From: Gymnodinialimonas phycosphaerae
Lineage (GTDB): Bacteria > Pseudomonadota > Alphaproteobacteria > Rhodobacterales > Rhodobacteraceae
Reading direction: 5' to 3'
NCBI RefSeq assembly: GCF_019195455.1
Contig: NZ_JAIMBW010000001.1
Span: 868,001 to 932,000 of the forward strand
Length of the DNA: 64,000 nucleotides
Of the stretch, positions 10,411 through 56,939 are shown one piece after another (position 1 is the stretch's first letter; each line of letters begins with the position of its first letter). The notes under the pieces are model-generated. The model was not told the origin of the DNA. It made no database searches and saw nothing but the letters and a program-made list of their open reading frames with translations. The translations under genes were made by a program, and so were the position numbers.

Positions 10411-10486
10411 CGTGTCGGATGCTCCGTGCAATCGTGCGAGATGGAAAGGGGCGCCCCGCTGGTCGGGACGCGCCCCCGTGATTGGG

Positions 10487-11638
10487 TCAACCCTTGGCGG
10501 TGCGGATCTTCTTCTCGGTGTCGTAGAAGGGCATTTCCTCGGCGGTTGCCGCCAATTCCGTGCCGTCCGGCTGCACCACGGTCAGAGCCGTGCCAGCGAC
10601 GGCCACGGAGGGATCAAGCCGCGCGATGGCGACGGAGTAGTTGTTCAACTCCGATGACAGGCCGTAGGTGATGACGCCGACGTCCTTGCCGTCGTGGTGG
10701 ACGCGGGCAAACATCTCCATCTGATCCATGCTGTCGCTCAACTTCACGCCATAGATCTTGAACCGCTCCTTGCCTTTCATGGCGTAGTGGTTCTCGGACC
10801 CCACAAAGCCCTCCTTGCCGGGAGAGACGGTGAATTCGAGGCCCAGTTCCCACAGGCTGTCGCCTGCTGGCGTGCCGTCCTCAAACGGGAACGTCTCGGA
10901 GTTGTCGCCGGGATAGAACAGCAAATACGACTCAATCCGCAGCATATCGAGGGTGGAGAACTGCGTCGGGCGAATGCCCATCGCTTCGCCGTTGGACAGG
11001 ATCTGATCCCAGATCTGCACCGCGTGCTTGCTTTGGCAGAAAATCTCATACCCGCGCTCGCCCGTATAGCCAGTGCGCGAGATCATCACGGGGCAACCGA
11101 ACAATTTCGTCTGCATGATGCCGAAATAGGCGAGGTCACGAATGCCCGGCACATATTCAGCCAGGAAATCGACCGCGACCGGGCCTTGCAGAGACATGTC
11201 GTGCATGTCGTCGTCGAAGATCATCGCAACGTTCTTGCCTGCTGCAGCGGCGGCCATCTGTTCCATGCCCGTGCCAGTGCCGTGGACGACCATCCACGAG
11301 TTGACCGACAGGCGGTAGATCACGCAGTCGTCCACGAACAGCCCACGGGTATCGAGCATACAGGCATAAACCGCGCGCCCCGGCATGATCTTTTCGACGT
11401 TGCGCGTGGTGGTGCGGTCAATGACGTAGGCGGCATCGGGCCCGGTCAGGTGAACCTTCTTGAGGCCCGATACATCCATGAGACCTGCCTTGGTACGGAT
11501 TGCCTCATAATCGGCTTTCGCACGTTCGGGCGTGTGGTCATAGAACCACGCGGTGCCCATGCCGTTCCAGTCCTCAAGTTCCGCGCCGATCGCTTCGTGA
11601 CGCTGCGCAAGCGCGGACGTTCTCCATAAAATGGCCAT
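10487..11638 (-). CDS. dmmD: DmmD, GcvT-like tetrahydrofolate-dependent aminomethyltransferase
   Basis: A 383-residue aminomethyltransferase-family protein (GcvT fold: YDHTPERAKADYEAIRTKAGLMDVSGLKKVHLTGPDA, and ISRTGYTGERGYEIF). It probably captures the formaldehyde released by dimethylamine oxidation onto tetrahydrofolate. The start is ATG 11638 (MAILWRTSALAQRH) because AGGGGGG stands 7 nt upstream; an in-frame ATG at 11656 lacks a site. It is the first gene of dmmDABC; the shared cluster motif lies about 90 bp upstream. It is not the glycine-cleavage GcvT, since no gcvH/gcvP is nearby. Confidence 0.83.
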   Translation of the reverse strand: MAILWRTSALAQRHEAIGAELEDWNGMGTAWFYDHTPERAKADYEAIRTKAGLMDVSGLKKVHLTGPDAAYVIDRTTTRNVEKIMPGRAVYACMLDTRGLFVDDCVIYRLSVNSWMVVHGTGTGMEQMAAAAAGKNVAMIFDDDMHDMSLQGPVAVDFLAEYVPGIRDLAYFGIMQTKLFGCPVMISRTGYTGERGYEIFCQSKHAVQIWDQILSNGEAMGIRPTQFSTLDMLRIESYLLFYPGDNSETFPFEDGTPAGDSLWELGLEFTVSPGKEGFVGSENHYAMKGKERFKIYGVKLSDSMDQMEMFARVHHDGKDVGVITYGLSSELNNYSVAIARLDPSVAVAGTALTVVQPDGTELAATAEEMPFYDTEKKIRTAKG

Positions 11639-39587: not shown

Positions 39588-40226
39588 TATGTCTTTGAAA
39601 CACCATACTTACCTGCCATTCGCGCACTTCGACCCGCTTGGAACAAAGGGCGCATCGTTGGACAGAAACGGCCCCTGAAACCAAAACATGCCTGGGCTAT
39701 CCGAGTTCGTCTGGAGCTGGCCGAAAACCATCGCGACCTCGCCCTCTTCAATATGGCCATCGATAGCAATCTACGCGATTGCGATCTGGTTCGTATGCAG
39801 GTCGTCGACGTAATGGCGTCTGGCGAGATCAAAGAACGGCCCTCGGTTTTACAAAGCAAGATACAAGAGCCAGTGTGGTTCGAGATATCAGAAGGCTCGC
39901 GTGCGTAAGTCGCAAAGTGGATGGAAGACCCTCTAATGGTCGGATCAGAATGTCTTTGGCCAGGCCGGTTTCACGAACGGCTGCACATCTCGACCCGCCA
40001 ATATGCACGGATTGTGCGTGACTGGGTTACGTCGATCGGCCTTGAGGTCGCAGCCTTTGGAACACATTCCATGCGGCGACCGAAGGTCACGCAGATCTAC
40101 AAGAGAGCCGGCAACCTTCGAGCAGTTCCGCTCCTGCTTGGTCAGACCAAGATAGACAGTACTGTTCGGTATCTTGGGGTGGAACTTGTTGATGCTCTTG
40201 CGACCGCTGAAGCCATTGAAATCTGA
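39588..40226 (+). pseudogene. Tyrosine recombinase/integrase, interrupted by an in-frame stop
   Basis: The frame reads WNKGRIVGQKRPLKPKHAWAIR, RDLALFNMAIDSNLRDCDLVRMQVVDV and later HISTRQYARIVRDWV, GTHSMRRPK and STVRYLG, the usual order in this integrase family. A TAA at 39906-39908 interrupts it in the same frame (SEGSRA-stop-VAKWMED). No start with a ribosome site is visible. The active-site region is partly eroded: the usual LLGHTK reads LLGQTK, though HSMRR and the final Tyr are kept. It begins the mobile-element debris that runs to dusA. Confidence 0.75.
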
Positions 40227-40392
40227 CCAGGCGGGCCGTCTTCAGGGACGGCCCCTAGCCGTCGTCCGGAACAACCGCACAGGCTGCGGTGCGGCTTCCC
40301 CAAAGCGGATGGGGTGGATAGCTCCTGATCCCCCGGCGTCGCAATTCGCCATACCGCAGTTTGTCTATCAGTGCCAGGAAAGGAGCGACCCA

Positions 40393-40470
40393 ATGCAAGT
40401 TGCAACAGTCGGCATCGATCTGGCCAAGCCTGTTATTCAGGTCCACGGGATTGACCTGCTCCCCCTCTGA
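40393..40470 (+). pseudogene. IS110-family transposase stub
   Basis: The first 25 residues (MQVATVGIDLAKPVIQVHGIDLLPL) match the RuvC-like N-terminus of IS110 transposases, with AGGAG upstream. The frame then stops where the IS3 remnant begins, so the rest was lost or displaced. Confidence 0.7.
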
Positions 40471-40478
40471 CTCCGCGT

Positions 40479-41221
40479 TTATGAGTTGGTTTTGTTCAGG
40501 GTTTTGTCCTCTCCTGACCGTTGGTGATACTCCCGTGGCGTGAGCCCGTCGAGGCGCGAATGCGGGCGGTGATGATTGTAGTCGTCGCGCCATGCCGCAA
40601 TCATGCGACAGGCATGGCGCAACGACGGGAACAGGTGCTTGTTGAGGGACTCCTCGCATATCCTCCATTGAAGCTTTCGACCAAACCATGCCGCAGCGGC
40701 TTGCCCGGCGCGATATAGTGCCAGCCGACCTTACGATCCTGTTGTCATTTCAGCATCGCATTGCTGGTCAGCTTGGTTCAATTGTCGCTGACCACCATGC
40801 AGGGATAGCCCCGCAGCTCAGCGATACGATCCAGTTCTCGGGCGACACGAGCACCGCCAATGGGTGTATCCACCACAGCGGCCAGGCATTCCCGGCTGAA
40901 GTCATCGATCACGTTCAGCACCCGGAACCGACGCCCGTCTTCGAGCGCGTCCGACATGAAGTCGAGCGACCACCTCTGGTGCGGCCCCTGCGGGATTGCC
41001 ATCGGCTTCCTTGTGCCCACTGCGCGCTTGCATCCGCCCCGCCACACTTGGATCGCCACTTATAAAAGGTCGCATCGCTGATGCCGTGCTTGCGGCATAG
41101 CTCCTTCGCAGCCACCCCAGCTTGGTGCTCTTTCAAAATGCCCACTCTCGGCAGATTTGCTTTGCAAACCGTCTGCCGCGCAGTGAATGATCTGTTCTTC
41201 GCTAAAACGGCTTCTCTTCAT
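40479..41221 (-). mobile_element. Decayed IS3-family element (orfA/orfB remnants)
   Basis: Read on the minus strand: the orfA start MKRSRFSEEQII at 41221, then out of frame ILKEHQAGVAAKELCRKHGISDATFYKWRSK. This runs directly into the orfB middle (KRAVGTRKPMAIPQGPHQRWSLDFMSDAL, VIDDFSRECLA, MVVSDN) and, after frameshifts, the orfB end ([28 protein letters not shown]) to a stop at 40479-40481. The end of orfA and the beginning of orfB are deleted. It cannot encode a transposase. Terminal inverted repeats were not resolved with confidence. Confidence 0.8.
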
Positions 41222-41282
41222 CGTCTGTCTCCTCAGTTGGGAACAGGCTAACCTCAAATCGAGGACTTTTCAGGGGAGCAGG

Positions 41283-41657
41283 TCACCAATTCCCAAGCAT
41301 CGAAACCCGTGGCATCAAACAGCCGAATGCGCTGGTCATTTTCGGTCTTGTTGCGCGGGTCCTTGCGGTCGTGGATGAGGAGCATCCGTCGTGCGACATC
41401 CAGATCGCGCCATTCAACGCGGCGGTTTGCCTACCTCGCACATATCCACTATGTGGAGATCGATCAGATCGCCAACGGTTGCGAGACGCGAGACGGACGA
41501 CTTGTTCGGTGCCAGCCCCTGTTCGACCCGGGTCTCCGCCTGGCGGGCCCAACGATGGGCGTCGTCGCGGCGGAGGAACGTCTCGCTCGCGTGAGTCACC
41601 CTTTCGTCTGATCTGGACCCGGTAGGCACCGGAGGGGAGTTTGGTGATGGAGGCCAT
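41283..41657 (-). pseudogene. Phage/ICE-type integrase remnant at the dusA 5' end
   Basis: The N-terminus MASITKLPSGAYRVQIRRKGD is typical of arm-binding domains of tyrosine recombinases. The continuation shifts frame to ASETFLRRDDAHRWARQAETRVEQGLAPNKSSVSRLATVGDLIDLHI, and another shifted piece follows. The catalytic domain is missing. It points away from dusA and ends about 110 bp before it, the arrangement expected for an element inserted at the dusA attachment site. Confidence 0.7.
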
Positions 41658-42859: not shown

Positions 42860-42936
42860 GGATCCATAGCTCAGCTGGATAGAGTGTCGCCCTCCGAAGG
42901 CGAAGGTCGTAGGTTCGAATCCTACTGGGTCCGCCA
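42860..42936 (+). tRNA. tRNA-Arg (CCG)
   Basis: A 77-nt cloverleaf including an encoded CCA end. The acceptor stem GGATCCA pairs with TGGGTCC (one G-U), the anticodon loop is CTCCGAA in the stem TCGCC/GGCGA giving anticodon CCG, and the T loop is GGTTCGAATCC. It reads CGG codons. A short T-run follows. Confidence 0.95.
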
Positions 42937-42947
42937 TTTGGCTTTTT

Positions 42948-43064
42948 ATTGCGCTACCGCCCTTTGGGCTACTTGAGCGCGGGGGTATTACGCCACCGCC
43001 TTTCGGGTTGCTTGAGTTGGAGGTATTGCGCAACTGGCATTTTAAGCCACTTGAGCGTGGAAGT
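42948..43064 (+). repeat. Three imperfect ~39-bp tandem repeats after tRNA-Arg
   Basis: Units at 42948-42986, 42987-43024 and 43025-43064 (39, 38 and 40 bp). Each starts ATTRCGC, has a centre like CGCCTTTCGGGYTRCTTGAG, and ends GGWRGT. No spacers separate them, so it is not a CRISPR array. Each unit can form a small hairpin around CCCTTTGGG-like centres. Confidence 0.75.
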
Positions 43065-43262
43065 GCGACCTGGTCTTCAATTAGCTGACGTGGCGTCCCA
43101 AAAACGTCGACCCAAAGGCCCGCGCCCGAACGAAATCCTTGATCCGCTGGGGTTTTTCGCACACGCTACCGTGATGAGAAAGTGGGGACTCCTTCCTTCT
43201 TGGCTCGATTTCACTTTCGCGTGCCGCAATCTCGGGACGTAAAATCGAACTAGGGACGTTTT

Positions 43263-44411
43263 TTGATTTCGCGTATCGGGCTGGTGTATCTGGCCATATT
43301 CATTGTTGTTCCCAGTGCTTTGACGTTTGCGTCTGCGGGCCACGAGACGGCATCCAACCTGTCGGCGTTGCTGGCGGGAACCATCGGGTTCTCTCTTATG
43401 ACGGCCAATATCGTGCTGGCCACGCGACCGCGCGGGCTGGAACAGTGGATGGGCGGGCTGGACCGCGTTTACGAGGTGCACAAATGGTCCGGCGCGTTGG
43501 TTCTGGGCCTGATCGTGGCCCACACGCAGATCGGGTTTGACCAAGTCGAGGGCGTCTTGCCGCCCGGTTCGCTCAGCTAAACTGCCGTGGAGGTGGCGGA
43601 GCTGGCGCTTTATCCGTCCACCAGTTGTTCGTGAAAGCGCCCTTTGGTCCTGCGGACCTGATCTCTCAATGGTTGATCGCGATGGCGGTCGTCGGGGTGC
43701 TGGCGCTGATCTGGACCTGGGTGCAAGATCCGGTGCGGGCACGTGGCTTCACCGTCTCGGAAATTTGAGCAATTGCCCGGTGCCACCTGTGTGCTGGCCA
43801 CACCCAATGGTCGCGGGCTGCGCTTGCGGCCCGGTCAATTCGCGTTTGTGTCGGCCAGAAAATCCGGCCTGCGCGAACCGCATCCCTACACTGTCTCGGG
43901 CACGGGCGAGGGGGGGAGCGTGGAATTCTCTATCCGGCCCTTGGGCGATTTTACCTGCCGCCTGCGCAAGACGCTTGCGCCCGGCGGCAAGCTGCGCCCT
44001 CAGGGCGGCTATGGCACGTTTCGGCCCCAAGACCGACGCAAGCCGCAAGTGTGGATCGCGGGCGGCATCGGGATCACGCCGTTTCTGGCAGCGGCAGAGG
44101 CCCTTGAGCCCGATCTCGACGGGCAAAGCACCTTGATCCACGCCGTGCCCACGAAAGCGGCTGCCGTGGGAGAGGATCGACTGCGCGCGGTCAGCGCCCG
44201 CGTGCCCGGCTTCACCTATCACCTTCATGCCAGCAACACGGCCTCTCGTTTGACCGGGGATGCCGTGTTGAAGCCATTACCGTTCGACATTTCCACAACA
44301 GAGATGTGGTTTTGCGGTCCCGCGCCGCTTCGCAAAGCCCTGCAAGCCCAATTCAAAGCGGCCGGGAAATCCCCACGCCGCATTCATTTCGAGCGTTTTG
44401 AGTTTCGATAA
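43263..44411 (+). pseudogene. Ferric-reductase-like transmembrane / ferredoxin-reductase protein, disrupted
   Basis: The first part (43263-43580) encodes the haem-binding membrane domain start (VYEVHKWSGALVLGLIVAHTQIGFDQVEGVLPPGSLS). TAA at 43578-43580 interrupts it in frame, followed by TAVEVAELALY. A segment that should carry more membrane helices is deleted, then HQLFVKAPFGPADLISQWLIA appears in another phase. Another shift near 43766 leads to an intact FAD/NAD(P)-binding half (FEQLPGATCVLATPNG ... HPYTVSG ... WIAGGIGITPFLAAAEAL ... WFCGPAPLRKAL). Three lesions make this a clear pseudogene. The intact relative would pass electrons from NAD(P)H across the membrane. Confidence 0.85.
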
Positions 44412-44451
44412 AACGCAAATTGAGTTGCAAAAACCCTTACGGGAGTTAGCC

Positions 44452-45009
44452 ATGTGCAATCCTGCCGCCATTCGCACCGCGTTGTTGTTTTCCGTTTCAA
44501 TGGCGATTGCATCGCCCGCGCCAGCGCAGGACTTGTTCCCGGACGGCACCCTTTCCGACTAAACGCCCGATATCGCGAACGGTGAGTTGGTGTTCAACGC
44601 GGCAGGCTGCGGATCGTGTCACGCCATCGACGGCGATGACCGCATCCTGGCGGGGGGCATGGACTTCCTCATTGGTCGCGTCGGCACGCTTTACGCGCCC
44701 AACATCACGGCCCATCCCACGGCGGGCATCGGCAACTGGTCGCGGGCGGATTTCCTCAACGCCGTGCTGCGCGGCGTGTCGCCCGAGGGCGAGACCTACC
44801 TTGGAGCCGCCTTCCCGCTCCCCGCCTATGCGCGCATGAACCCCGAGGATGCCGTGGACCTGCAGGCCTACCTCACGACGCTGCCCCAAAGCGATGCGCC
44901 GTCCCGCGATCATGCGGTGAATTTCCTGGGTGATGCCTACCTCAGCCTGTTTTCCCGCGATCAACCGGGCCTGATGGGGCACGCTGATCCGCAACTGGAG
45001 CGCGGCTAA
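44452..45009 (+). pseudogene. N-terminal part of the multihaem cytochrome gene, cut by two in-frame stops
   Basis: ATG 44452 with GGGAG 6 nt upstream and a signal peptide (ALLFSVSMAIASPAPAQD). TAA at 44560-44562 (codon 37, LSD-stop-TPDIANGE) and TAA at 45007-45009 (codon 186, ERG-stop-YLVEALG) interrupt a reading frame that otherwise continues to 47916. Between them is one haem-c motif, CGSCH (residues 53-57), in a class I cytochrome-like domain (NAAGCGSCHAIDG ... LGAAFPLPAYARM). As written, translation from the proper start gives a 36-residue peptide. Confidence 0.8.
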
Positions 45010-45015
45010 TATCTG

Positions 45016-47916
45016 GTGGAGGCCTTGGGCAATTGCGCGGGCTGCCATACCCCGCGCGAAGGCCGCCTCTCAGAGCGGTTGAACCACGACGACGCCTTCG
45101 CGGGTCAATCCACGATGATCGGCGAATATGCAGGCGCGATCAACGCCGAGCGTTTGGCGCTGTACTCGGCGGAAGCCTTCGTGAACGGTGTCATGGCCGA
45201 AGGCATGCGCCTTGACGGCCTGCCGATGACCAGTGCCACCATGCGCCGTGTTGCTCGTGCCACGGGGGGACTATCCCACGAAGATCGCGTGGCGATCTAT
45301 GCCTATCTGATGGGCGCGCCGGTTGACCCCAGCACGGTGCAGCAACTGGATAGCGGCGCGGAAGCGCTGGTGGTCGAAGTCGCGCAGGTGGTCGAGCAAG
45401 CCGCGCCCGAGGTCATGGACATGACCGGCGCCACGTCCCTGATGAACCGCGTCGATGCCTTCTGCGCCGTGCCCGATGAGGCGGTGACGCCCGCCGCCGC
45501 CGTGCCTGCTGCCGCGTCCCCCGTGGGTGTCTCCCCCGAGATCGAGGCAGCCGTCAGTGCCGTCCTGGATGAACATTGCCGCAGCTGCCACGGCCCCGGC
45601 ATGACCTACCAGCGCAGCTTCCTGACCGGCCCCATGGCGCAACTGGCGCGCGATCCTGCCGCTGTTGTGTCGGGCGATCACCAAGCCTCGCTGCTTTACG
45701 ACACAATCGCCAGCAACCGGATGCCCACGCCGAACCGTCCGCGCCTGCAACCGGCGGAACTGCAAGCGCTGGTCGCCTGGATTGACGCGCTTGCCCCGGC
45801 GCCTTCGGTGCCGCAGGCTGCCGCGCCTGCCGTGGAAGCCGCCCGCACCGCCGTCGCACGCCCGGCAATGCCGGAGTTAGTCGGCGGCTCGTTCGAGGAA
45901 ATGGTCGGTGCTGCCGTGGCAGACCTTGGCGCAATCGATGAACAGGACCGCCAGCACATCCGCTATTTCAGCTTCGCGCATCTGCCAATGCCCGAGATCG
46001 ACTGCACCCAGGAAGGTGCCCTGCGCAATCCGATGCATTACATTCACGCGGGCCTGAACAAGTTCATCAACTCGGTCTTTCGCGCGCCCACGATCCAGCA
46101 GGTCACCCCCGTCGCGCGCACCGATGGCGCGCTGGTGCGCATCGACCTGCGCGACTTCGGCTGGACCGCCGACGATTGGCGGGCCTTGACGGAACGGGTC
46201 CACACCCAAGGTGCGGTAGAGGCCGGAGTTACCGCCGCCGCCTGGGATGAGTTGGCCCCCCCATATCCCTATGCCGTCAGCCCCACGTCGGACCCGATGT
46301 TGGGCGTGATCGCCAACTACACGGGCAGCGCCGTGCCGATCCTGCAAGCCGATTGGTTCACGCGCCATGCCTCCGAGCAGCCGTATTACGACATGCTGCT
46401 GCGCCTGCCCGATAACATCGCCGTGCTGGAGGCGCGCATGGGCATCGACGTGTTCCGCGAGATCCGTGAAATGCGCTTGATCCGGGCCGGGTTCCTGGCG
46501 GCGTCCTCGGGCGTGTCGGACCACAATCGGATGCTGGAGCGTTTTGATCTACCGCGCGGGGGCTATTACTGGCGCTCGTATGATTTCGCGGGTTCCGATG
46601 GCAGTCAGTCGTTGATCACCCACCCCGATGGCCCCGCCGAGATGGGCTTGACCGTTTCGGGCACCGCCCCGTTTGAACATGACGGCGGCGAGATGATCTT
46701 TTCGCTGCCCAATGGCATGCAGGGCTATTACCTGTCCGAAGCCGACGGGCGGCGATTGTCCGAGGGGCCGACCTCCATCGTGTCCTTCCGCGAGCGGCCC
46801 ATTGGCCGGGGGATCGAGCTCGTCAACGGGCGGTCCTGCTTTGCCTGCCACGACAACGGCATGATTGCGCGCCGCGACGAGATTCGGTCCTTCATCCAGA
46901 CCGCGCCCCACTTCGATATCCGGCAGCGTGATGTGCTGTTGCGCATGTATCCCGAACAATCGGTGTTGGATGAGTATTTCCGCCGCGACACGGAGACCTT
47001 CGTGGCAGCACTCAGCGCGATGAACGCCACCCAGCGCACTGTGGCGGGGCGCGAGGCCTCCATCCTGGCACCCGATGGCAGCGGCGAGATCGTCACCTGG
47101 CTGGCCGATTTCCGGTTCCGCAGGCTCGACATTGCCGATCTGGCGCAGCGTTTCTTCCTGACCGAGGAAGAATTCCGCACCCGCGCCCGGCAGATCGGCG
47201 ATCCGCATCTGGCGCAGTTGGTCTCGGGCTGGGTGCAGCGCTTCGACAATGGGCTTTTGGTGACGCAGGATGAGGTCGACACCCATTGGGCCGCGCTTCT
47301 GCCGCGCCTGACCCTGCTGGATGCGTTGGATTATCATCCCGGGACCGTAGATTATCAGGTTGCCGGGGGCGCTTATGAGGCCGCCGCCGTGGCCGCCATC
47401 GAAATCGCTGTCGGGGCCGATGCCGATGCCTATGCGCCGCGCGTCGACGTTCCCGCCTATGTCGCGCCCGTTACCCATGCCGACCCGCTGGAAATCACGC
47501 TGCACGTGCCGCGCCAGCAGGTCTATGTGGATGATCTGCTGACCTTCGAGGTCTCGACCAACCGCGCCTGCATCCTTCAGATCATCTATGTGGAGATCAA
47601 CGATGCCATCGTCGAGTTGCCGCAAGCGGTGATCGGGGCAGAGCTGATCCAACCGGATGAACGGCGTTTGATCCCGCAGGCGGCCTCTGGCTTGCAGTTG
47701 CGCTTTGATCGCCCCGGCGTGGGCGAAACGCTGCTGGCCTACTGCCGAGAGCCGTCCTCGGGCCAGCCCGCGATTGATGCGGCGCAAATGGTCGCCGTGG
47801 CCCACGAACGCTACCAGCCGCTGTTCCGGGGCCTGACCGTCGAGGCCGCCAACCGCGTCGAAGACGATGCGGGCCGCAGTGCCTTTGCCAGCGTCACGAT
47901 TGACGTTCTGGGCTGA
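45016..47916 (+). CDS. Multihaem c-type cytochrome with C-terminal DUF4384-like domain (main open segment)
   Basis: A 966-codon open segment in the same frame as 44452-45009; with it the gene would have 1,155 codons. Haem-c motifs in full-gene numbering: CAGCH (195-199), CRSCH (376-380) and CFACH (796-800), plus CGSCH upstream, so four. The region around 376 resembles a planctomycete-type cytochrome (EHCRSCHGPG ... IASNRMPTPNRPRLQPAELQALVAWIDAL). The last 150 residues (ITLHVPRQQVYVDDLLTFEVSTNRACILQIIYVE) look like DUF4384, often found with bacterial caspases. Without a signal peptide this segment alone could not be exported and haem-loaded. Confidence 0.65.
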   Translation: MEALGNCAGCHTPREGRLSERLNHDDAFAGQSTMIGEYAGAINAERLALYSAEAFVNGVMAEGMRLDGLPMTSATMRRVARATGGLSHEDRVAIYAYLMGAPVDPSTVQQLDSGAEALVVEVAQVVEQAAPEVMDMTGATSLMNRVDAFCAVPDEAVTPAAAVPAAASPVGVSPEIEAAVSAVLDEHCRSCHGPGMTYQRSFLTGPMAQLARDPAAVVSGDHQASLLYDTIASNRMPTPNRPRLQPAELQALVAWIDALAPAPSVPQAAAPAVEAARTAVARPAMPELVGGSFEEMVGAAVADLGAIDEQDRQHIRYFSFAHLPMPEIDCTQEGALRNPMHYIHAGLNKFINSVFRAPTIQQVTPVARTDGALVRIDLRDFGWTADDWRALTERVHTQGAVEAGVTAAAWDELAPPYPYAVSPTSDPMLGVIANYTGSAVPILQADWFTRHASEQPYYDMLLRLPDNIAVLEARMGIDVFREIREMRLIRAGFLAASSGVSDHNRMLERFDLPRGGYYWRSYDFAGSDGSQSLITHPDGPAEMGLTVSGTAPFEHDGGEMIFSLPNGMQGYYLSEADGRRLSEGPTSIVSFRERPIGRGIELVNGRSCFACHDNGMIARRDEIRSFIQTAPHFDIRQRDVLLRMYPEQSVLDEYFRRDTETFVAALSAMNATQRTVAGREASILAPDGSGEIVTWLADFRFRRLDIADLAQRFFLTEEEFRTRARQIGDPHLAQLVSGWVQRFDNGLLVTQDEVDTHWAALLPRLTLLDALDYHPGTVDYQVAGGAYEAAAVAAIEIAVGADADAYAPRVDVPAYVAPVTHADPLEITLHVPRQQVYVDDLLTFEVSTNRACILQIIYVEINDAIVELPQAVIGAELIQPDERRLIPQAASGLQLRFDRPGVGETLLAYCREPSSGQPAIDAAQMVAVAHERYQPLFRGLTVEAANRVEDDAGRSAFASVTIDVLG

Positions 47917-47979
47917 TGATACTTACGCGGGGCGGGTCAAAGCCTGCCCCGGAACCTGCAATTTCAGGGGGGAAAGCCG

Positions 47980-48606
47980 ATGCCGATTTCAACCACGATC
48001 CAACGGGCCGTTTTGGTCGCATGCCTCGCGTGGCCTGGCGTCGGCACGGCGCAAGAGGCGCTTGACGTGGACAGCCTGCTGGATGCGCTGATCCGTCCAG
48101 AGCCGTCTTCCAGCATCACCCGCAGCCTTGGCGCAGCACCCGTCGTGTCCGGGCCCACGGCAGAGGAGGTGTTGTTCCTGGAACGGCTTCCCACGCGCGG
48201 GCTTACTGTCGAGGTGCGCGCCGAAGTGGCCGAAATCGCGATGGAGCGGGAATTGCCGCGCATCGATCTGGACATTCCGTTCGACTACGACAGCGACGAC
48301 CTGCGCGCCGATGTGATGGCGGATCTGGTAACTATCGGGCAGGCGCTGTCGTCCGAGGGTCTTTCCGGGTCCCGCTTCATCCTGGCCGGTCACACCGACG
48401 GCGTCGGCAGCGCCGCCTACAACCAGAACCTGTCCGAGCGGCGCGCGGCCTCGGTCCGCAGTTTCCTGATCGAAGCCTTCGGGCTGCCGGAACAGCAACT
48501 TGTGGCTGTGGGTTTCGGGTTCGAGCAACTGCTCACCCCCCAGGATCCCTCTGCCGCCGCAAACCGCCGTGTCGAGGTGATCAACCTCGAAGTCGCGTGG
48601 GAGTGA
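47980..48606 (+). CDS. OmpA-family peptidoglycan-associated protein
   Basis: A 208-residue secreted protein: signal peptide (RAVLVACLAWPGVGTAQ), a variable linker to about residue 95, then an OmpA C-terminal domain (IDLDIPFDYDSDDLRADVMADLVTIGQAL ... FILAGHTDGVGSAAYNQNLSERRAASVRSFLIEAFG ... NRRVEVINLEV). The ligand residues for diaminopimelate are within TDGVGS..N..LSERRA. GGGG at 47968-47971 precedes ATG 47980. It would anchor to the cell wall and sits between the cytochrome and caspase genes, 6 bp before the next start. This gene is intact. Confidence 0.85.
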   Translation: MPISTTIQRAVLVACLAWPGVGTAQEALDVDSLLDALIRPEPSSSITRSLGAAPVVSGPTAEEVLFLERLPTRGLTVEVRAEVAEIAMERELPRIDLDIPFDYDSDDLRADVMADLVTIGQALSSEGLSGSRFILAGHTDGVGSAAYNQNLSERRAASVRSFLIEAFGLPEQQLVAVGFGFEQLLTPQDPSAAANRRVEVINLEVAWE

Positions 48607-48612
48607 GCTGAG

Positions 48613-49725
48613 ATGTTTGCGATCCGCCTTCTGTGTGCGGCCATTGCGCTTGCACTTGCCATACCCAACGCGGCCTCCGCGCAGGAACGGCATGCGCTGG
48701 TGATCGGCATCAACGCCTATGACAACCTCGGGTCTTTGGAAAAGGCCGTGAATGATGGCCGTGCCATGGCCGATAGCCTGGAGCGGGCGGGGTTCACCGT
48801 GGACGCGGGCTATGACTTGAGCCGCCGCGATTTCGTGCTTCTTTTGACCCGGTTCCTCGATCGCCTTGGGCCCGATGACGAAGCGCTGGTCTTCTACGCG
48901 GGCCACGCCGTTGCGATCGAGAACCGCAATTTCCTGGTGCCCGCTGACGCCTCCGCGCTGGAACAATCCAGCGAGGCGCTGATCATCGCGGAAAGCATTG
49001 GGCAGGAGTTCATTCTTGATCAGATCACCGCCACGGGCGTGCGCCTGTCCGTGGTGATCATGGACGCCTGCCGCAATAATCCGTTCGAGGGGCTGTCGAC
49101 CCGCTCGCTCGGGCGGGACGCGGGCCTTGCGATCACGCAGCCGCCGCGCGGCGTCTTCATGATGTATTCCGCCGACGAAGGGCAAACGGCGCTGGACCGT
49201 CTCAGCAACGATGACCCGCACCCGAATTCCGTCTTCACCCGCACGCTTCTGCCCCTGATAGAAGAGCCCGGCATCGACATCGTCGACATCGCCCGCCGCC
49301 TGCGCGGTGACGTGCAGGCCTTGGCCGCAGGCGATCAGCACCAGCAGTTTCCTGTCTACCGGGACCGAATGCAGGGTGGGGGGCAGTTTGTGATTAACCG
49401 CATCCGAGCCGTCGCTGAGCAGCCAGCGCCTGTCACAACGCCTCCGGGGGCTGCCGTGGTGCCTACACCCATGGCGCGGGTAGCGCCACCGGTTGCAGTC
49501 AATCCCTGCGTTACTGCCCGGGCTGATTGGGCGCTTCTGGGCAACAGCCCCAGCGTGGCCGTGCTTCAAGCCTACCGCGCGGCCCATAGCGGGTGTCCGT
49601 TGATGATGACATTGGCCTCGGACCGCTTGGCGGCTTTGATCACGCTGCCGCAGCCCGTGCCCCAACCGATACCGCAAACGGTGCAGCCGTCCATCGGGGC
49701 AAACCCAGTCGGCAGTGGGGCCTAA
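48613..49725 (+). CDS. Secreted caspase-family protein 1 (C-terminus truncated by in-frame TAA)
   Basis: A 370-residue product with a signal peptide (1-23) and a caspase/peptidase C14 domain (25-260). The putative catalytic dyad is His98 (FYAGHAV; most relatives have GHG) and Cys153 (MDACRNNPF). From residue 297 comes the two-cysteine module shared by all three caspases here (NPCVTARADWALLG ... HSGCPLMMTLASDRLAAL). The frame ends at TAA 49723-49725, but homologous-looking sequence follows after a 1-nt shift, so this product has lost its last domain. The catalytic part is intact. Confidence 0.8.
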   Translation: MFAIRLLCAAIALALAIPNAASAQERHALVIGINAYDNLGSLEKAVNDGRAMADSLERAGFTVDAGYDLSRRDFVLLLTRFLDRLGPDDEALVFYAGHAVAIENRNFLVPADASALEQSSEALIIAESIGQEFILDQITATGVRLSVVIMDACRNNPFEGLSTRSLGRDAGLAITQPPRGVFMMYSADEGQTALDRLSNDDPHPNSVFTRTLLPLIEEPGIDIVDIARRLRGDVQALAAGDQHQQFPVYRDRMQGGGQFVINRIRAVAEQPAPVTTPPGAAVVPTPMARVAPPVAVNPCVTARADWALLGNSPSVAVLQAYRAAHSGCPLMMTLASDRLAALITLPQPVPQPIPQTVQPSIGANPVGSGA

Positions 49726-50120
49726 GTTGCCCCGCCACAGGGGGGAACCCGGTTGCCTGGGCGCCTCGGTTCGGGGGCGAGCGGATCACCTATTGGGATC
49801 ACAACGGCTTTGGCATGGCGTGGGGAAGCCGCGGCACGCAGCGGTGGGTTTGGTACTACCGCCCCCGCGCCGGCATCGCGGCCCAAGGGGTGACACCGGG
49901 CACGTTGCTGCTTTCGGGAACGCTGGTGGACGGGTAATTGACTGGGCAGGCGCGGCGGTTTTCCAACTCATGTGGGATGCTTGAATATGACGTGTCGGGC
50001 ACCGCCGTGGGCCAGCGGGTGACCCTTCAAGGGTCCTATCCAACGCGCGATGACGCGTGCAGAAACGGATACCTCCAGAGTGATCGCCTCGACTTTTCGT
50101 ATGTGAGCACGCAGCCATGA
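49726..50120 (+). pseudogene. Detached C-terminal domain of caspase protein 1
   Basis: After the TAA at 49723 the frame reads VAPPQGG, then a one-base loss in a run of six G (near 49740-49745) shifts it to NPVAWAPRFGGERITYWDHNGFGMAWGSRGTQRWVWYYRPR, and a second in-frame TAA at 49935-49937 separates LLLSGTLVDG from LTGQARRFSNSCGMLEYDVSGTAVGQRVTLQG. The last piece ends at TGA 50120, overlapping the next start. Tryptophan- and tyrosine-rich; probably a small beta domain of about 125 residues. I recognise no family. Confidence 0.65.
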
Positions 50121-51226
50121 GCCCCAGACGTTCCCTCTTGCCTGCGGGGCGCATCCTGTTCGCGCTGTGCTTGTGCCTTAGCCTGCTTTGGTCCGCCACG
50201 GCCCACGCCCAAACCCGCCACGCCTTCGTGGTCGGCATCGATACCTATGAGAACGTCGGATCTTTAGAAAAGGCACGCAACGATGCGCGCGCCGTGGCGG
50301 GCGCGTTGGAAGAGGTGGGCTTTCGCACACAGCTTCTGATCGATGTCGATGAAACGGCTTTGCTGACGGAACTCACGCGGTTCTCGGGCCAGCTCAATCC
50401 CGGAGATGAGGTGGTGTTCTACTTCGCGGGCCATGGGGTGGAGATCAACGGGCGCAATTACCTGCTGCCCGCCGATGTGCCAAGCGTTGCGCCGGGGCAA
50501 GAACTGGTCGTGACCCGTGGCGCGCTGCCCGACGCTCCCACAGGCTCGGCTGATCCGTGCGCTGCCGCCCGCGCGGATTGGTCCCTGATCGGGGAAACGC
50601 CGGGTGTCGCCCTGTTGGAGGCTTACCGCACCGCCCACAGCGGCTGTCCGCTGATGATGATGCTGGCGTCCGAGCGCCTTGCTGCCCTGACCGCCACGCC
50701 CGCGCCGTCACCACCTGCGGCGACCCTTGAACCCACCCACACGCCTGCGCACACCCCTTCACCCCAGGGCGACGTCTCGGTCCCTGTGCAGGCCTGCGTG
50801 GCCGCCGCCGATCCGGACCACACCTCCATCGCGGACCTGCGCGCAGACGCGGCCCAGGCCACAGCGCGGGCCCGCTGCGCCGCGGCGCTGGTCCAAATCA
50901 CTGACCGCGCCAGCGCGGAGGGCACGCACGTGCTTGCGCTGCTGGGACGCGCTGCCCACGCGGCGGGAAACTTTGAAGAAGCGGTGTCATTTTACGAAGA
51001 GGCCGCCCACGCCAATCCCATGGCCGCCAGCAACCTTGGGAGCCTGTACCAGACCGGGCGCGGTGTCGCCGCCGACGGGGCCCGGGCGGCCGAGCTATTC
51101 CAATCTGCCGGAGAACTGGGGGCCGCTTACGGGTGGCACAACTACGCCTCCCTCTACTATCGCGGCGAGGTGGTTCCGCTGGATTACGACCGCGCCGCCG
51201 AGGCTTACCTTCGGGCCGCGCAATAG
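50117..51226 (+). CDS. Secreted caspase-fold protein 2 lacking the catalytic cysteine (N-terminal part)
   Basis: A 369-residue product up to an in-frame TAG at 51224-51226. Signal peptide 1-31, caspase-fold start with His106 (FYFAGHGVEINGRNYLLPADVP), but the half with the catalytic Cys is missing: after PGQELVVTRGAL it jumps to the two-cysteine module (DPCAAARADWSLIGE ... HSGCPLMMMLASERLAAL). Against its neighbours this is an in-frame deletion of roughly 160-190 codons. A proline/threonine linker, a helical region and the first Sel1 repeats (FEEAVSFYEEAAHANPMAASNLGSLYQTGRGV) follow. Catalytic activity is not expected. Confidence 0.75.
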   Translation: MSPRRSLLPAGRILFALCLCLSLLWSATAHAQTRHAFVVGIDTYENVGSLEKARNDARAVAGALEEVGFRTQLLIDVDETALLTELTRFSGQLNPGDEVVFYFAGHGVEINGRNYLLPADVPSVAPGQELVVTRGALPDAPTGSADPCAAARADWSLIGETPGVALLEAYRTAHSGCPLMMMLASERLAALTATPAPSPPAATLEPTHTPAHTPSPQGDVSVPVQACVAAADPDHTSIADLRADAAQATARARCAAALVQITDRASAEGTHVLALLGRAAHAAGNFEEAVSFYEEAAHANPMAASNLGSLYQTGRGVAADGARAAELFQSAGELGAAYGWHNYASLYYRGEVVPLDYDRAAEAYLRAAQ

Positions 51227-51241
51227 GGCTGGCCGTCGTCC

Positions 51242-52162
51242 ATGTATTGGACGGGGCGGATGTACCGCGACGGGACAGGCTTTGCCCAGAGCGATGCCCA
51301 GGCGGCCCGGTGGTTCGAGCGTGGGGCAGAAGCTGGCAACGTCAACGCCATGACCCAATTCGGGTTCATGCTGTCCGAAGGATTGGGCGTGGCGCAGGAC
51401 CAAAGCGCGGCCGCGCGCTGGTTTCAGACCGCCTCGGACGCGGGCTCGGCCGAGGCGGCGGCCCGTCTTGGCATCGGCCATCGCCTCGGCGAGGGGGTCG
51501 CGCGCAACCCGGACCAGGCCTATCTGTTGCTGTCGCGCGCGGCAGAGGAAGGCAACGGGCGCGCCATGCGGCACCTCGGCCAGATGTTTGCAGAGGGCGA
51601 CGGCGTGGCCCAAAGCGACGCAGACGCCGCGCAATGGTATCAGCAAAGGGTCGATGCGGGGGACGCTGCTTCGGCGACGCACCTGGGGGCCTTCTATTTC
51701 AATGGACGCGGCGTCACCGCCGACCGCAACCGCGCGTCCGAGTTGTTTCGCCAGGCCGCCGAGGGTGGCGATGCGGCCGGCATGCGCAACACGGGTGTCA
51801 TGTACCGCGAAGGTTATGGGGTGGCCGTCAGCCACGCCGAGGCGATGCATTGGTTCCAGCGGGCCGTCGCACTGGGTGACGCGTTCGCGCATTACTACAT
51901 TGGTTGGCAGTACCAATACGGCAACGGCGTGCCGGTGAATGCGCGCGAGGCCGCACAGTGGTTTGTGAGCGGTCTGGCGGCGGGGCACGATTACGCCCTC
52001 CGCAACCCCGCAGAATTCAACGGCGCCGTGGGCCGCGAGATGCAGGAGCTTTTGCGTGAAAGAGGCAGGTACGATGGCGCAATCGACGGCGTTATCGGGC
52101 CCGGAACCGTTGCAGCGATGAGAGCGTACATGGAGCTTGGCGAAAGACTGATCGAGCTATGA
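51242..52162 (+). pseudogene. Sel1-repeat / peptidoglycan-binding part of caspase-fold protein 2
   Basis: It continues the frame of the preceding gene after the TAG at 51224 (RAAQ-stop-GWPSSMYW). About seven Sel1 repeats (for example AARWFQTASDAGSAEAAARLGIGHRLGEGVARN) are followed by a PG_binding_1 motif (LLRERGRYDGAIDGVIGPGTVAAMRAYMELGE). The stop falls in the A-A-E-Q-G position of a Sel1 repeat, where Gln is usual, pointing to CAG>TAG. No ribosome site or signal peptide supports separate translation. Confidence 0.7.
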
Positions 52163-52178
52163 CAAGTGGTGTGGTTGG

Positions 52179-53918
52179 ATGAAGACTTTCATATGGGTGT
52201 TGGTGTGGTTTGTCGGTCTGGCGTCGGTGGTCAGCGCCCAGGATCGCCACGCGCTGGTTATCGGGATCGATGACTACGTCAACGTCTCGGACCTGCAAAA
52301 GGCCCGCAACGATGCCGAGGCCGTGGGCGTTGCGCTGGAAGACACGGGGTTCGACGTCACCGTCCTTCTAGACGCGAACCGCCGCGACATGTTTCGCGCG
52401 CTCAACACCTTTGTCGGGCAGCTTCAACCCGGCGATGACGCGGTGTTCTACTTCGCCGGTCACGGCGTGGAGGTCGAGGGACGCAACTACCTGCTGCCCA
52501 CGGATGTGCCCGCCATGCGCCCCGGAGAAGAGCGTTTGCTGACCAGCGAAAGCCTTGCTGCCGATGACGTGCTGGCCGATATGCAGGCCTCGGGCGCAAG
52601 GGTCAGCCTGCTGATCCTTGACGCATGCCGCGACAACCCCTTTCCGACGGAAGGCACCCGTAGCCTTGGGCGCAGCACGGGCCTGTCACGGCTGGAAGCG
52701 CCCGAGGGCGCGTTCATCATGTTCTCGGCCGGGACCGGACAGGCGGCCCTCGATCGCCTGTCGGACGATGATCCAAACCCCAATTCCGTGTTCACCCGCG
52801 CGCTGTTGCCGCTGCTGTCCGAGCCGGGCCTGCCGATCCATCAGATCGCGCGGCGCTTGCGGCGCGATGTCCAGGACCTCGCCAGTTCCGTCGGGTATTC
52901 CCAGCGGCCCGCCTATTATGACGAGGTAACGGGGGATTTCTTCTTTCTTTTGGAAGAAGAGACGGTGGAAGGGGTGGCCACCGGCACTCCAGGCCCCACA
53001 CCAACACCCACGCAGCCCCCGGCTTCCACCCAGCCCCAAGCACCCGCGTCCGCGCCGGATGGCGTCCCGGAACGCACCCCCAGCACCACCCCCTGCGCCA
53101 CCGCGCGGCTGGATTGGGCGCTGGTCGCCGACAGCTCCAGCCCCGCTGTGCTGGAGGCCTACCTCGCCTCGCATCAGGATTGTGCCTTCATGGTAGCCTT
53201 GGCGTCCGAGCGCTTGGCAACTTTGCAAGCGCCGCCACCTGACCCCTGCGCGCCAGCGCGGGCGGAGTGGGAAGCGCTCAGCGCGCGGCCTGATTTCGAC
53301 ACCGCCGCGGCCCTCGGCGCACTTACCGCGTTCCAGGCGACCTACGGGACCTGCCCGATCTATGGGGCTCTGGTGATTTTCCAGTTTGCGGAAATGGAGC
53401 GCTTGGAAGATGAACGCCGTCGGCCCGTCCATGGCCCCCGGCCGTCCCAGGGAAACCGGGTCTGCACCACGTCGACCGGGTTCACCGGCCCCGGCGTGGG
53501 GGCGCGCACCTTCTGCGCCTCCAGCGCATTGCCACCGGCTGGCACCAATTCCTACTGGCCGCCACATCTGTTCGACGACAACCTGCGGACTGCCTGGAAC
53601 GAGGGTGTCAGCGGGCGCGGCAGGGGGCAAACCCTGGCTTGGGAGTTCGAGGCCGAAACCCAGGTGCGCCGGATCCGCGTCGTGAATGGCTACACCAAGA
53701 CCAATCGCACCTATACCCGCAACGCGCGCGTCCGGGAGGTGCGGATCACCGGATCATCGGGTTTTTCGATGAACACCAAGCTGCGCGACACCGGTGACTG
53801 GCAAACCATCGAGTTGGGCGACATCGACCCGCAGATGTGGCTTCAGATCGGGATCGTATCGACCTATCCGGGCACCCATTATGCCGACACGGAAGTGACG
53901 GAATTACGCATCGAGTGA
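52179..53918 (+). CDS. Secreted caspase-family protein 3 with C-terminal glycan-binding-like domain
   Basis: A 579-residue intact protein. Signal peptide 1-20; caspase/C14 domain 22-255 with His95 (YFAGHGV) and Cys150 (LILDACRDNPF); a P/T/Q-rich linker 270-305; two copies of the two-cysteine module (TPCATARLDW ... and DPCAPARAEW ...); and a C-terminal beta-sandwich from about residue 425 (YWPPHLFDDNLRTAWNEGVSGRGRGQTLAWEF ... RIRVVNGYTKTNRTYTRNARVREVRI) resembling discoidin/NADase-type glycan-binding domains. It is the only caspase gene here that is complete. It probably acts in the periplasm on or near glycans; the substrate is unknown. Confidence 0.83.
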   Translation: MKTFIWVLVWFVGLASVVSAQDRHALVIGIDDYVNVSDLQKARNDAEAVGVALEDTGFDVTVLLDANRRDMFRALNTFVGQLQPGDDAVFYFAGHGVEVEGRNYLLPTDVPAMRPGEERLLTSESLAADDVLADMQASGARVSLLILDACRDNPFPTEGTRSLGRSTGLSRLEAPEGAFIMFSAGTGQAALDRLSDDDPNPNSVFTRALLPLLSEPGLPIHQIARRLRRDVQDLASSVGYSQRPAYYDEVTGDFFFLLEEETVEGVATGTPGPTPTPTQPPASTQPQAPASAPDGVPERTPSTTPCATARLDWALVADSSSPAVLEAYLASHQDCAFMVALASERLATLQAPPPDPCAPARAEWEALSARPDFDTAAALGALTAFQATYGTCPIYGALVIFQFAEMERLEDERRRPVHGPRPSQGNRVCTTSTGFTGPGVGARTFCASSALPPAGTNSYWPPHLFDDNLRTAWNEGVSGRGRGQTLAWEFEAETQVRRIRVVNGYTKTNRTYTRNARVREVRITGSSGFSMNTKLRDTGDWQTIELGDIDPQMWLQIGIVSTYPGTHYADTEVTELRIE

Positions 53919-53987
53919 CGGGGGCCTTGTGCCGCGCGCGTCAATCGGGTTCGCTGCGACGACTGATTTCTGACCCGAGGGCCCCCG

Positions 53988-54974
53988 ATGCACGTCTCCA
54001 TTTCCGACATCCGCGCCGCCTCCGAGGCCGCGCTTCTGGCCCATGGCGCAGGCCCTTTTCAGGCCGCCGAGGTCGCAAAGGCCGTCGCCCGGGCAGAGGA
54101 GACCGGGAACATCATCTGCGGGCTCTATTACTTGGAAAGCTATTGCACCCAGCTTGCCTCAGGGCGGGTCGACGGCACCTTGGTGCCCGACGTTTCGCGT
54201 CCCAAAGCGGGCGTCGTGCGGTCCGATGCGCGCTTCGGCTTCGCGCAACCGGCCTTTGCCCGGGCGCTGCCCCTGGCCGTTGAGGCCGCGCGAGAGGTGG
54301 GCGTTGCCACCTTGACCGTCGCCCACGCCCATACCTGTACGTCACTGGGGTATTTCACCGAACAGATCGCGGCAGAGGGCCTGATCGCCCTCGGCTTTAC
54401 CAATGCCTCTGCCATTGTCGCGGCACCCGGCGGCAAAGCGCCGGTTCTTGGCACCAACCCCATAGCGATGACGATCCCCGGGGACGGTGCACCGCTGATG
54501 CATGCGGATTTCTCGACCTCTGCGGTTGCCCTGGGCAAGATCACCATGGCGAAAGCGGCAGGCGAGGCGATCCCGCCGGGATGGGCCGTGGACGCGGACG
54601 GCGCGTCCACAACGGACCCAGACGCGGCGCTGAAAGGCGCGCTGCTAAGTGCGGCGGGGCCCAAGGGGTGGGCCTTTGGTCTATTGGTGGAGGTGATGGC
54701 GGCAGGGTTGACCGGATCGGTCAACTCTCTGGATGTAAAGGGATTGAAGCTGCCGGATGGAAATCCCCATGATCTGGGCCAGTCCTATATCCTGATCGAT
54801 GCGAATGCCCATGCGGGGCAGGATGTCCTGGCGGAACGTCTGGCGCGTGTCGCGGATGTCATCGCCTCTGACGGGGGCACGGGGCGGATCCCCGGTGCGC
54901 CGCGCAAACACATCGACCCGGTCGATGTGCCGGAAGCCCTCTGGACCCAAGTGCAACGTCTGGCGGCGGGCTGA
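53988..54974 (+). CDS. Malate/L-lactate dehydrogenase-type (Ldh2 family) oxidoreductase
   Basis: A 328-residue NAD(P)-dependent 2-hydroxyacid dehydrogenase of the Ldh2/ComC/YiaK fold. Signature regions are ARAEETGNIICGLYYLESYC, FTNASAIVAAPGGKAPVLGTNPIAM, DFSTSAVALGKITMAKAAGEAIPPGWAVDADG and GPKGWAFGLLVEVMAAGLTG. Possible substrates include malate, lactate, sulfolactate and ureidoglycolate; sequence alone does not decide. It is 3 bp before the kinase gene, so an operon is likely. Confidence 0.82.
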   Translation: MHVSISDIRAASEAALLAHGAGPFQAAEVAKAVARAEETGNIICGLYYLESYCTQLASGRVDGTLVPDVSRPKAGVVRSDARFGFAQPAFARALPLAVEAAREVGVATLTVAHAHTCTSLGYFTEQIAAEGLIALGFTNASAIVAAPGGKAPVLGTNPIAMTIPGDGAPLMHADFSTSAVALGKITMAKAAGEAIPPGWAVDADGASTTDPDAALKGALLSAAGPKGWAFGLLVEVMAAGLTGSVNSLDVKGLKLPDGNPHDLGQSYILIDANAHAGQDVLAERLARVADVIASDGGTGRIPGAPRKHIDPVDVPEALWTQVQRLAAG

Positions 54975-55983: not shown

Positions 55984-56493
55984 CTATTCGGCAGCGGTAC
56001 GCTTCGGAAGCACCCAATTGGGGCGTACGAAATGGCAGGTGTATCCGTTGGGGATCCGCTCCAGATAGTCCTGATGCTCGGGCTCGGCGTCCCAGAATGG
56101 GCCTACGGGCTCCAGCTCCGTCACGACCTTGCCGGGCCACAGCCCCGAAGCGTCGACGTCGGCAATCGTATCCTCGGCCACCGCCTTCTGGGCGTCGTCG
56201 ACATAGTAGATGGCGCTGCGATAACTCATTCCCCGGTCGTTGCCCTGACGGTTTGGGGTGGTCGGATCGTGGATCTGAAAGAAGAACTCCAGCAATTGCC
56301 GGTAGCTGATGCGGGCGGGGTCAAAGATGATCTCGATCCCCTCGGCATGGGTGCCATGGTTGCGGTAGGTGGCATTGGGCACGTCGCCGCCGGTGTAGCC
56401 TACCCGCGTGGCCTCCACGCCGGGCATCTTGCGGATCAGGTCCTGCATGCCCCAAAAGCATCCCCCTGCCAAAACTGCGCGTTCAGTGCTCAT
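55984..56493 (-). CDS. msrA: Peptide-methionine (S)-S-oxide reductase
   Basis: A 169-residue MsrA with the GCFW catalytic motif (Cys12), GYTGG, and [17 protein letters not shown]. It repairs the S-epimer of methionine sulfoxide. It lacks extra N-terminal sequence, so it is cytosolic. The start overlaps the msrB stop by ATGA, and both are transcribed leftward. Confidence 0.93.
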
Positions 56494-56939
56494 GCTACAT
56501 CCTCCACTTGATCAATATAGGCGCCATAGCCTTCGGCCTCCATGTCGTCGCGGTGCACGAACCGAAGCGAGGCGGAGTTGATGCAATACCGCAGACCGCC
56601 CCGGTCGCGCGGGCCGTCGGGGAAGACATGGCCCAGATGGCTGTCACCGTGGGTCGAGCGGACTTCGGTGCGGACCATGCCAAGGGACATGTCGCGCAAC
56701 TCGTTGACCATGGAGGTGTCGATGGCCTTGGTGAAGCTCGGCCACCCGCAGCCCGAGTCGAACTTGTCGCTGGAGGCGAACAGGGGCTCGCCCGAGACGA
56801 TATCGACGTAAATCCCCGGCTCCTTGTTATGGAGCAGCTCTCCGGTGCCTGGACGTTCGGTGCCGTCTTGCTGGGTGACGCGGAATTGCTCGGGCGTCAG
56901 GGTGGCGATCACGTCGGGGTTCTTGGTGTATTGGGTCAT
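56490..56939 (-). CDS. msrB: Peptide-methionine (R)-S-oxide reductase
   Basis: A 149-residue MsrB with catalytic Cys in [19 protein letters not shown] and [10 protein letters not shown]. The zinc-binding CxxC pairs seen in many MsrB proteins are absent, so it belongs to the zinc-free form. First gene of msrBA. Confidence 0.93.

Follow-up and report, generated by a model that had tools for sequence, protein, structure and literature searches.

A recurrent alphaproteobacterial cluster of flavocytochrome, cytochrome, OmpA and caspase genes, with a putatively decaying copy in Gymnodinialimonas phycosphaerae

Why should genes for a membrane flavocytochrome, a multi-haem cytochrome, an OmpA protein and three caspase-fold proteins stand together on one strand of an alphaproteobacterial genome? 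The arrangement is found in a window of 64,000 nucleotides from Gymnodinialimonas phycosphaerae (NCBI RefSeq assembly GCF_019195455.1, contig NZ_JAIMBW010000001.1, positions 868,001 to 932,000). Its + strand carries at 43263-53918, in this order by Pfam, a ferric-reductase-like gene (FRE), a cytochrome gene (CYT), an OmpA-domain gene and three Peptidase_C14 genes. An earlier reading of the letters alone, referred to here as the sequence-only reading, had described order, strand and coordinates correctly. What stands here is a degenerating copy of an envelope module conserved among Alphaproteobacteria; the reading in which FRE would pass electrons to CYT and the state of CYT would set the activity of secreted caspases has a probability of roughly 0.45. 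The linkage of the genes is visible in the sequences, from which we infer the electron transfer and the redox gating.

The first step is to ask whether the same neighbours are found elsewhere. Named genomes were scanned by CYT alignment alone, and the neighbouring genes were called with models of FRE, OmpA, caspase and trypsin. The counts that follow refer to the best 80 of 205 confirmed loci, 71 of which have adequate flanks (loci are cited by L numbers and genomes by G numbers). FRE lies upstream of CYT in 71/71 flanked loci; 67 were counted by a distance filter, and L086, L109, L140 and L151 were added since their stop-to-stop CYT frame overlaps FRE. A same-strand OmpA gene is near CYT in 66 of the 71 (59 downstream, 7 upstream). 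A caspase gene lies within about 10 kb of CYT in 66/71, downstream and on the same strand in 63/71, and two or more are present in 56/71. The commonest run is FRE-CYT-OMPA-CASP-CASP (44/80 loci). Others start with CASP and OMPA, as on a Neorhizobium petrolearium plasmid, where independent annotation reads 'caspase - OmpA - ferredoxin reductase - c-type cytochrome'. For 30 carriers hand-picked from several lineages, which hold 1-16 C14 genes each (median 5), random 23-kb windows are estimated to catch a C14 gene in about 0.8/30, against 27/30 observed at CYT loci. A family sample with one genome per genus (295 genomes) gave 30 matches to CYT, of which 17 substantial ones were kept and 13 short, weak ones dropped. 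Seven of these genomes, including G000 and the divergent G228, have a long-form CYT; all seven have caspases beside it and five have OmpA adjacent. FRE, CYT, OmpA and caspase genes cluster across many alphaproteobacterial genera, mostly on one strand and mostly in open frames, and the intact version that the sequence-only reading had advised seeking can be found in relatives such as L064. That reading had also held that the arrangement would be accidental if the neighbours did not co-occur in other genomes; this comparison was run, and its proposal was not refuted, as the set recurs in many genera. The genomes compared show FRE, CYT, OmpA and one to four caspases to be a recurrent cluster, with the same members throughout but a varying gene order and differing types of OmpA.

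What kinds of protein are involved? The first gene had been called a membrane ferric-reductase-like gene, which agrees with the Pfam matches of the window pieces to Ferric_reduct (28.4 bits) and then to FAD_binding_8 and NAD_binding_1. Together, the intact FRE of L064 and the window pieces contain the Ferric_reduct membrane domain, the FAD and NAD domains and the paired haem-ligand histidines. FRE His 75, 89, 149 and 162 are invariant in 77/77 sequences. The window CYT is 65-67% identical to the intact CYT of L064 and matches Cytochrom_C and Cytochrome_CBB3 in Pfam; its database names are 'c-type cytochrome' and 'mono/diheme cytochrome c family protein'. The sequence-only reading was right to count four haem motifs (CXXCH starting at 44608, 45034, 45577 and 46837), and the DUF4384-like end it proposed reaches 20.9 bits in the window, below the cut-off of 27; in the relative L071 the match is above threshold (30.9 bits). 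The central domain of the window CYT has no Pfam match, and for its well-conserved core of about 490 amino acids (aa) no Pfam family was found. The alignment of this domain has 59 rows and 50 invariant columns, and its AlphaFold2 model has a predicted local distance difference test (pLDDT) score of 91.7. A multi-haem extracellular conduit of the MtrC/MtrA type was considered for CYT and rejected: such conduits carry about ten haems, CYT has only four CXXCH, and its Mtrc-MtrF Pfam matches are below cut-off.

The sequence-only reading had taken everything in the locus to be exported. By a crude rule of our own, this applies to most CYT (73/79), OmpA (74/81) and caspases (126/155) and fails for FRE (11/79); other open reading frames score 97/666. 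The majority of CYT, OmpA and caspase proteins thus look exported by prediction. It had also counted three caspase-fold proteins. All three match Peptidase_C14 above the cut-off of 21.4 bits (caspase 2 with 50.6 bits; Table 1) and are the sole C14 matches in the whole 4.3-Mb genome. Caspases 1 and 3 have both catalytic motifs, and the domain of caspase 2 is partial, without the Cys motif. The PG_binding_1 match in the continuation of caspase 2 is below threshold (21.4 vs 23 bits); in L064, C14, Sel1 and a weak PG_binding_1 match are united in one open protein. The C-terminal NADase_transloc domain of caspase 3 is of F5/8 type C. An intact relative in L065 has C14 and NADase_transloc in one protein, with the NCBIfam domain name 'NADase-type glycan-binding'. 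Among solved structures, the best match of caspase 3 by sequence is MALT1.

The catalytic residues of the caspases are mostly kept in the 80 loci. The His-Cys dyad is present in 151/161 aligned caspase stretches. The two S1-pocket Asp residues, assigned by motif and alignment position with their equivalence resting on our reading, are present in 158/161 and 155/161, and the dyad together with both Asp in 150/161. In TbMC2, Asp95 and Asp211 are described as the S1-pocket Asp residues for basic P1 (Klemencic et al., 2019; PMC6426788). The caspases are predicted to cleave after Arg/Lys. Separately, frames of about 575-597 aa in L022-L027 (G001, G003, G004, G006, G007 and G014; five same-genus genomes and one further family member) cover no more of the caspase profile than its initial third to half.

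A sister clade has a shorter CYT, and trypsin-like proteases are found there in place of caspases. All 10 short-form CYT genomes of the family sample have OmpA and a trypsin-like gene (10/10). The nine trypsin seed proteins were drawn from 8/10 short-form loci, leaving just L070 and L076 as loci that contributed no seed, and trypsin-like identity was confirmed by Pfam for four genes in three short-form loci. When 59 CYT cores are placed on a tree, a branch with 100/100 support separates off the side that contains those associated with trypsin; caspase presence changes five times on the tree, compared with a mean of 15 in shuffles. Short-form CYT, OmpA and trypsin-like gene perhaps form a second system in its own right. 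In L070-L079, where the short-form set occurs, SH3, WD40 or Sel1 domains were seen in the four loci scanned, and several loci are near ABC transporter-like genes.

What might the proteases cut? The OmpA protein, correctly recognised earlier as peptidoglycan-binding, belongs in the window to type A. The type-A linker before the OmpA domain has R-G-[LI] in 16/16 rows and TR[SG] in 15/16 (the OmpA fragment of L134 was left out, reducing 17 rows to 16). It contains 35 TR/KR motifs vs 0.5 in shuffles, although any conserved motif would exceed shuffles. In the window, the Arg codon of TR-SL is at 48121 and that of LPTR-GL at 48196; LPTR-GL is similar to the MALT1 cleavage consensus LXP/SR|G (PMC4659944). 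Five of five OmpAs near caspases without CYT (L204-L208) have a TR-G/A motif; these loci were picked by eye, partly for the nearby caspase, and their gene spacing ranges from overlapping to about 4 kb. No TR-G/A-type motif is present in the 150 residues examined of the L209 and L210 OmpAs. The Arg-Gly/Ser linker motif of type-A OmpA is a candidate caspase substrate. L203 (G016:C400) has three adjoining short OmpA genes, each with an Arg-containing linker motif and with no caspase in 10 kb. The L142 OmpA (7851) has a linker of repeated Lys-Pro-rich units ahead of its domain. In L065, a YARHG-domain protein (9001-10503; PF13308, 43.2 bits) lies between CYT and the caspases, the usual OmpA position.

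The window copy itself is damaged. Compared with the intact L064 gene, FRE is missing about 37 codons and has two frame changes around 43607-43774, as well as an in-frame stop at 43578. CYT has in-frame stops at 44560 (TAA) and 45007 (TAA). Caspase 2 runs into a TAG at 51224, its C14 coverage ending early (Table 1). Caspase 1 stops at 49723, shortly past its domain, and a further open stretch follows in another frame; from this we infer a lost tail. The frames of OmpA and caspase 3 are intact, and those of the flanking dusA and Ldh_2 genes are open. Because several lesions of differing kinds sit in one stretch, we argue for a cluster of partly decayed pseudogenes, in which single lesions may still be sequencing errors.

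The cluster fills a stretch of about 11 kb bounded by dusA-tRNA-Arg and the Ldh_2 gene. The gap from dusA to Ldh_2 is 0.2-0.3 kb in five genomes of the genus (G001, G002, G004, G006, G012), and the four short-gap genomes fetched (L192, L193, L198, L199) have tRNA-Arg(CCG) between the two genes. Other cargo is found there in G005 (an integrase-like gene), G008, G009, G010 and G011; for G003 and G007 no Ldh_2 match was obtained in the same-genus comparison. In the window genome the distance is 11.2 kb, and the cluster occupies the slot at 42936-53988. The other 12 genomes of the genus, of which one is only 83% complete, yielded no CYT, and the nearest CYT is from an uncultured Nioella (67-68% identity). 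Because the genus-mates are without CYT and their dusA-Ldh_2 slot varies, the cluster may have entered at a variable slot, or other members of the genus may have lost it, and it is now eroding. The window module was probably acquired at the tRNA-Arg slot. In wide samples the core is rare, being found in 2/385 genomes class-wide (full length) and 3/398 Pseudomonadota, with the window genome counted in both. In the class sample, 127/385 genomes matched CYT, full-length only in G000 and G091, and the rest (<=52.7 bits) were dropped. Just upstream of dusA, at 39921-41657, translations include fragments resembling tyrosine-integrase ends and IS3-type transposase pieces. Past the other slot edge, at 55984-56939 on the - strand, two neighbouring genes resemble the methionine sulfoxide reductases MsrA and MsrB. 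Downstream of the cluster in the Salaquimonas loci L136 and L153 are genes with ParA/MinD ATPase-like starts (GVGKTT).

Table 1. Positions in the window of the cluster genes and of the edges of the slot.
Feature	Position	Strand	Basis
tRNA-Arg(CCG), upstream edge of variable slot	42860..42936	+	ARAGORN, Rfam, same-genus comparison
FRE, ferric-reductase/NADPH oxidase (NOX)-like membrane flavocytochrome, broken; start codon uncertain	43263..44411	+	Pfam; alignment of intact L064 protein
CYT, exported (predicted) four-haem cytochrome, C-terminal DUF4384/immunoglobulin (Ig)-like domain	44452..47916	+	Pfam, motifs, L064 comparison
CYT central domain, ~490 aa, holds fourth haem motif	45868..47340	+	Alignment; AlphaFold2
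OmpA-domain protein with signal peptide; linker motifs TR-SL, LPTR-GL	47980..48606	+	Pfam 65.8 bits
Caspase 1, signal peptide followed by C14, in which both the His and the Cys motif are present; truncation probable	48613..49725	+	Pfam 91.8 bits, motifs
Caspase 2, first part of C14 only, without catalytic Cys region	50117..51226	+	C14 positions 1-101 of 233 (1-100 in a second Pfam search); motifs
Caspase 2 in-frame continuation, Sel1 repeats and weak peptidoglycan-binding match	51242..52162	+	Sel1 136.5 bits, PG_binding_1 21.4 bits
Caspase 3, open frame, signal peptide, C14, NADase_transloc	52179..53918	+	Pfam 114.8 and 91.7 bits
Ldh_2 (malate/lactate dehydrogenase), downstream edge of slot	53988..54974	+	Pfam; same-genus positions

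How could such parts work together? The sequence-only reading, which is partly supported, had thought a redox-gated periplasmic protease module conceivable, with the reductase feeding the cytochrome; it mentioned neither the trypsin-like replacement in the sister clade nor the variable slot at tRNA-Arg. Electrons from cytosolic NAD(P)H would cross the inner membrane by way of FAD and the two haem b of FRE and so reach CYT, whose haems could serve as a periplasmic redox or gas sensor, or as an enzyme. Through contact of its Ig-like DUF4384 end and the OmpA scaffold, the state of CYT might set the activity of the secreted caspases, with OmpA as peptidoglycan anchor and possible target. The caspases would cut after Arg/Lys, and their likely first substrates would be the OmpA partner and other envelope proteins. 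The envelope may be remodelled as a result, or a cell that is damaged or under attack may be killed. A trypsin-like protease fills the caspase slot in the sister clade; a basic P1 is common among trypsin-like proteases. A stronger version, a periplasmic switch from cytochrome to caspase, is rather improbable: FRE would charge CYT, whose redox or gas-bound state would release Arg-specific caspases (trypsin-like proteases in the sister clade); these, by cleaving the wall-anchored OmpA, would commit the cell to breakdown of its envelope.

Several observations weigh against the main reading. Five of the 71 flanked loci (L136, L141, L142, L143, L158) have no caspase within about 10 kb, and FRE-CYT can therefore exist without one. 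A nearby same-strand OmpA was not seen in L089, L098, L129, L141 and L148, nor does the divergent L069 have one. The 80 loci are those closest to the query, and many are near-copies from Ensifer, Rhizobium and Shinella. Type-B OmpA (58/75 rows) lacks the Arg-Gly/Ser motif, which is present in type-A OmpA of four caspase-free flanked loci (L136, L142, L143, L158) and occurs also in OmpAs not adjoining caspases (L203 x3, L211, L212); the motif may therefore be unrelated to the protease. The window copy is unlikely to work, and some relatives are broken as well (L134 with FRE in two frames and an OmpA fragment, L159 with CYT in two frames).

Redox gating is ranked as the likeliest account, followed by simple co-regulation and then by roles in defence or death. 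Under co-regulation, FRE and CYT would form a periplasmic redox enzyme acting, for example, on nitric oxide (NO), hydroxylamine or peroxide, and the caspases would be envelope quality-control or maturation proteases produced under the same conditions. This is somewhat unlikely, as a caspase or trypsin partner is kept across deep CYT branches, including the very divergent L069, which seems more than co-regulation would be expected to keep. Comparison with the P460 sequence profile (PF16694) also speaks against this rival: the 59 CYT central domains gave matches to 21 families at E 1, none of them PF16694, and hhalign gave a probability of 28.8 over 14 columns, aligning the haem motif alone. It is more doubtful that the cluster serves envelope defence or contact killing, with CYT and OmpA sensing damage by phage, predator or rival and the secreted caspases or trypsins acting on the attacked or attacking cell. 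Exchangeable caspase and trypsin genes with WD40, SH3, Sel1 and glycan-binding-type domains do resemble the logic of conflict systems as set out by Kaur et al. (2020; PMC7159879), the core is rare (3/398 Pseudomonadota, the window's own included; 0/12 genus-mates), and copies lie in a variable tRNA slot (window) and on a plasmid (Neorhizobium). Against this, PADLOC found only single-domain models (caspase, RT-Protease, HEAT-ARM, ZorB) in the nine cluster proteins searched, the search covering these proteins and not their neighbourhoods, and the records of L134 and L144, both Rhizobiaceae, bear the title chromosome. Chance proximity of the genes, or an artefact confined to the sequence of a single genome, which the broken genes of the window and the missing CYT of the genus-mates might suggest, is refuted for practical purposes because the genes co-occur elsewhere, in open syntenic copies in many genera, and the flanking frames are open.

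Exported bacterial caspases have, to our knowledge, no established function. The cluster gives them conserved partners with assayable chemistry and a concrete substrate candidate, and it occurs in genera of which strains are in culture (Ensifer, Shinella, Rhizobium). Control of the proteases by the cytochrome would be striking if true. The switch, if real, would be a bacterial regulated death or damage response that shares both of its components, cytochrome c domains and caspases, with the mitochondrial pathway of animals, by ancestry or by convergence. The alphaproteobacterial periplasm is the counterpart of the mitochondrial intermembrane space. If cytochrome and caspase cooperate in the periplasm, it becomes possible to ask by experiment why cytochrome c and caspases are linked in mitochondria, an old question. 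The protomitochondrion has been argued to have encoded caspases and metacaspases (PMC5982838).

The sequence-only reading knew no described system of this composition, and no description of a cytochrome-caspase link or of the four-part set was found in open-licence PubMed Central papers. The nearest known systems each share some of the parts. OmpA occurs in 14/217 metacaspase operons, operons with several metacaspases are found in Alphaproteobacteria among others, and some metacaspases are thought to be extracellular (Asplund-Samuelsson et al., 2012; PMC3501461). The likeness lies in the OmpA partner and in the several metacaspases per alphaproteobacterial operon; however, the word 'cytochrome' is absent from the main text of that paper, and its operon section has no ferric-reductase partner and proposes no such system. 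Alphaproteobacterial QC pseudo-orthocaspases carry a trypsin-like domain and DUF4384 and thus bring caspase fold, trypsin-like domain and DUF4384 together as described by Klemencic et al. (2019; PMC6426788). They are single proteins with an altered dyad, whereas the present cluster has separate genes, a mostly intact dyad, and cytochrome and OmpA in addition. Conflict systems with interchangeable caspase and trypsin peptidases, a subset of which has OmpA and Sel1-repeat domains, are likewise similar in that caspase-like and trypsin-like peptidases share one slot (Kaur et al., 2020; PMC7159879). These systems are described as NTP-dependent, whereas the conserved partners here are a flavocytochrome and a putatively exported multi-haem cytochrome; no NTPase is among the product names around the Neorhizobium cluster, although no systematic NTPase search was made around the 80 loci. 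Mitochondrial apoptosis likewise joins cytochrome c domains to caspase-fold proteases within a single pathway. It uses a mono-haem cytochrome c, whereas CYT is a large multi-domain protein, and an Apaf-1-like adaptor was not noticed with the cluster, no search having been made for one. Members of the NADPH oxidase/ferric reductase family have the same membrane haem, FAD and NAD domains as FRE, which differs from them by its genetic tie to a predicted exported cytochrome. The four-part set is rated, from its sequences, as new as a system, composed of known families and one unclassified domain.

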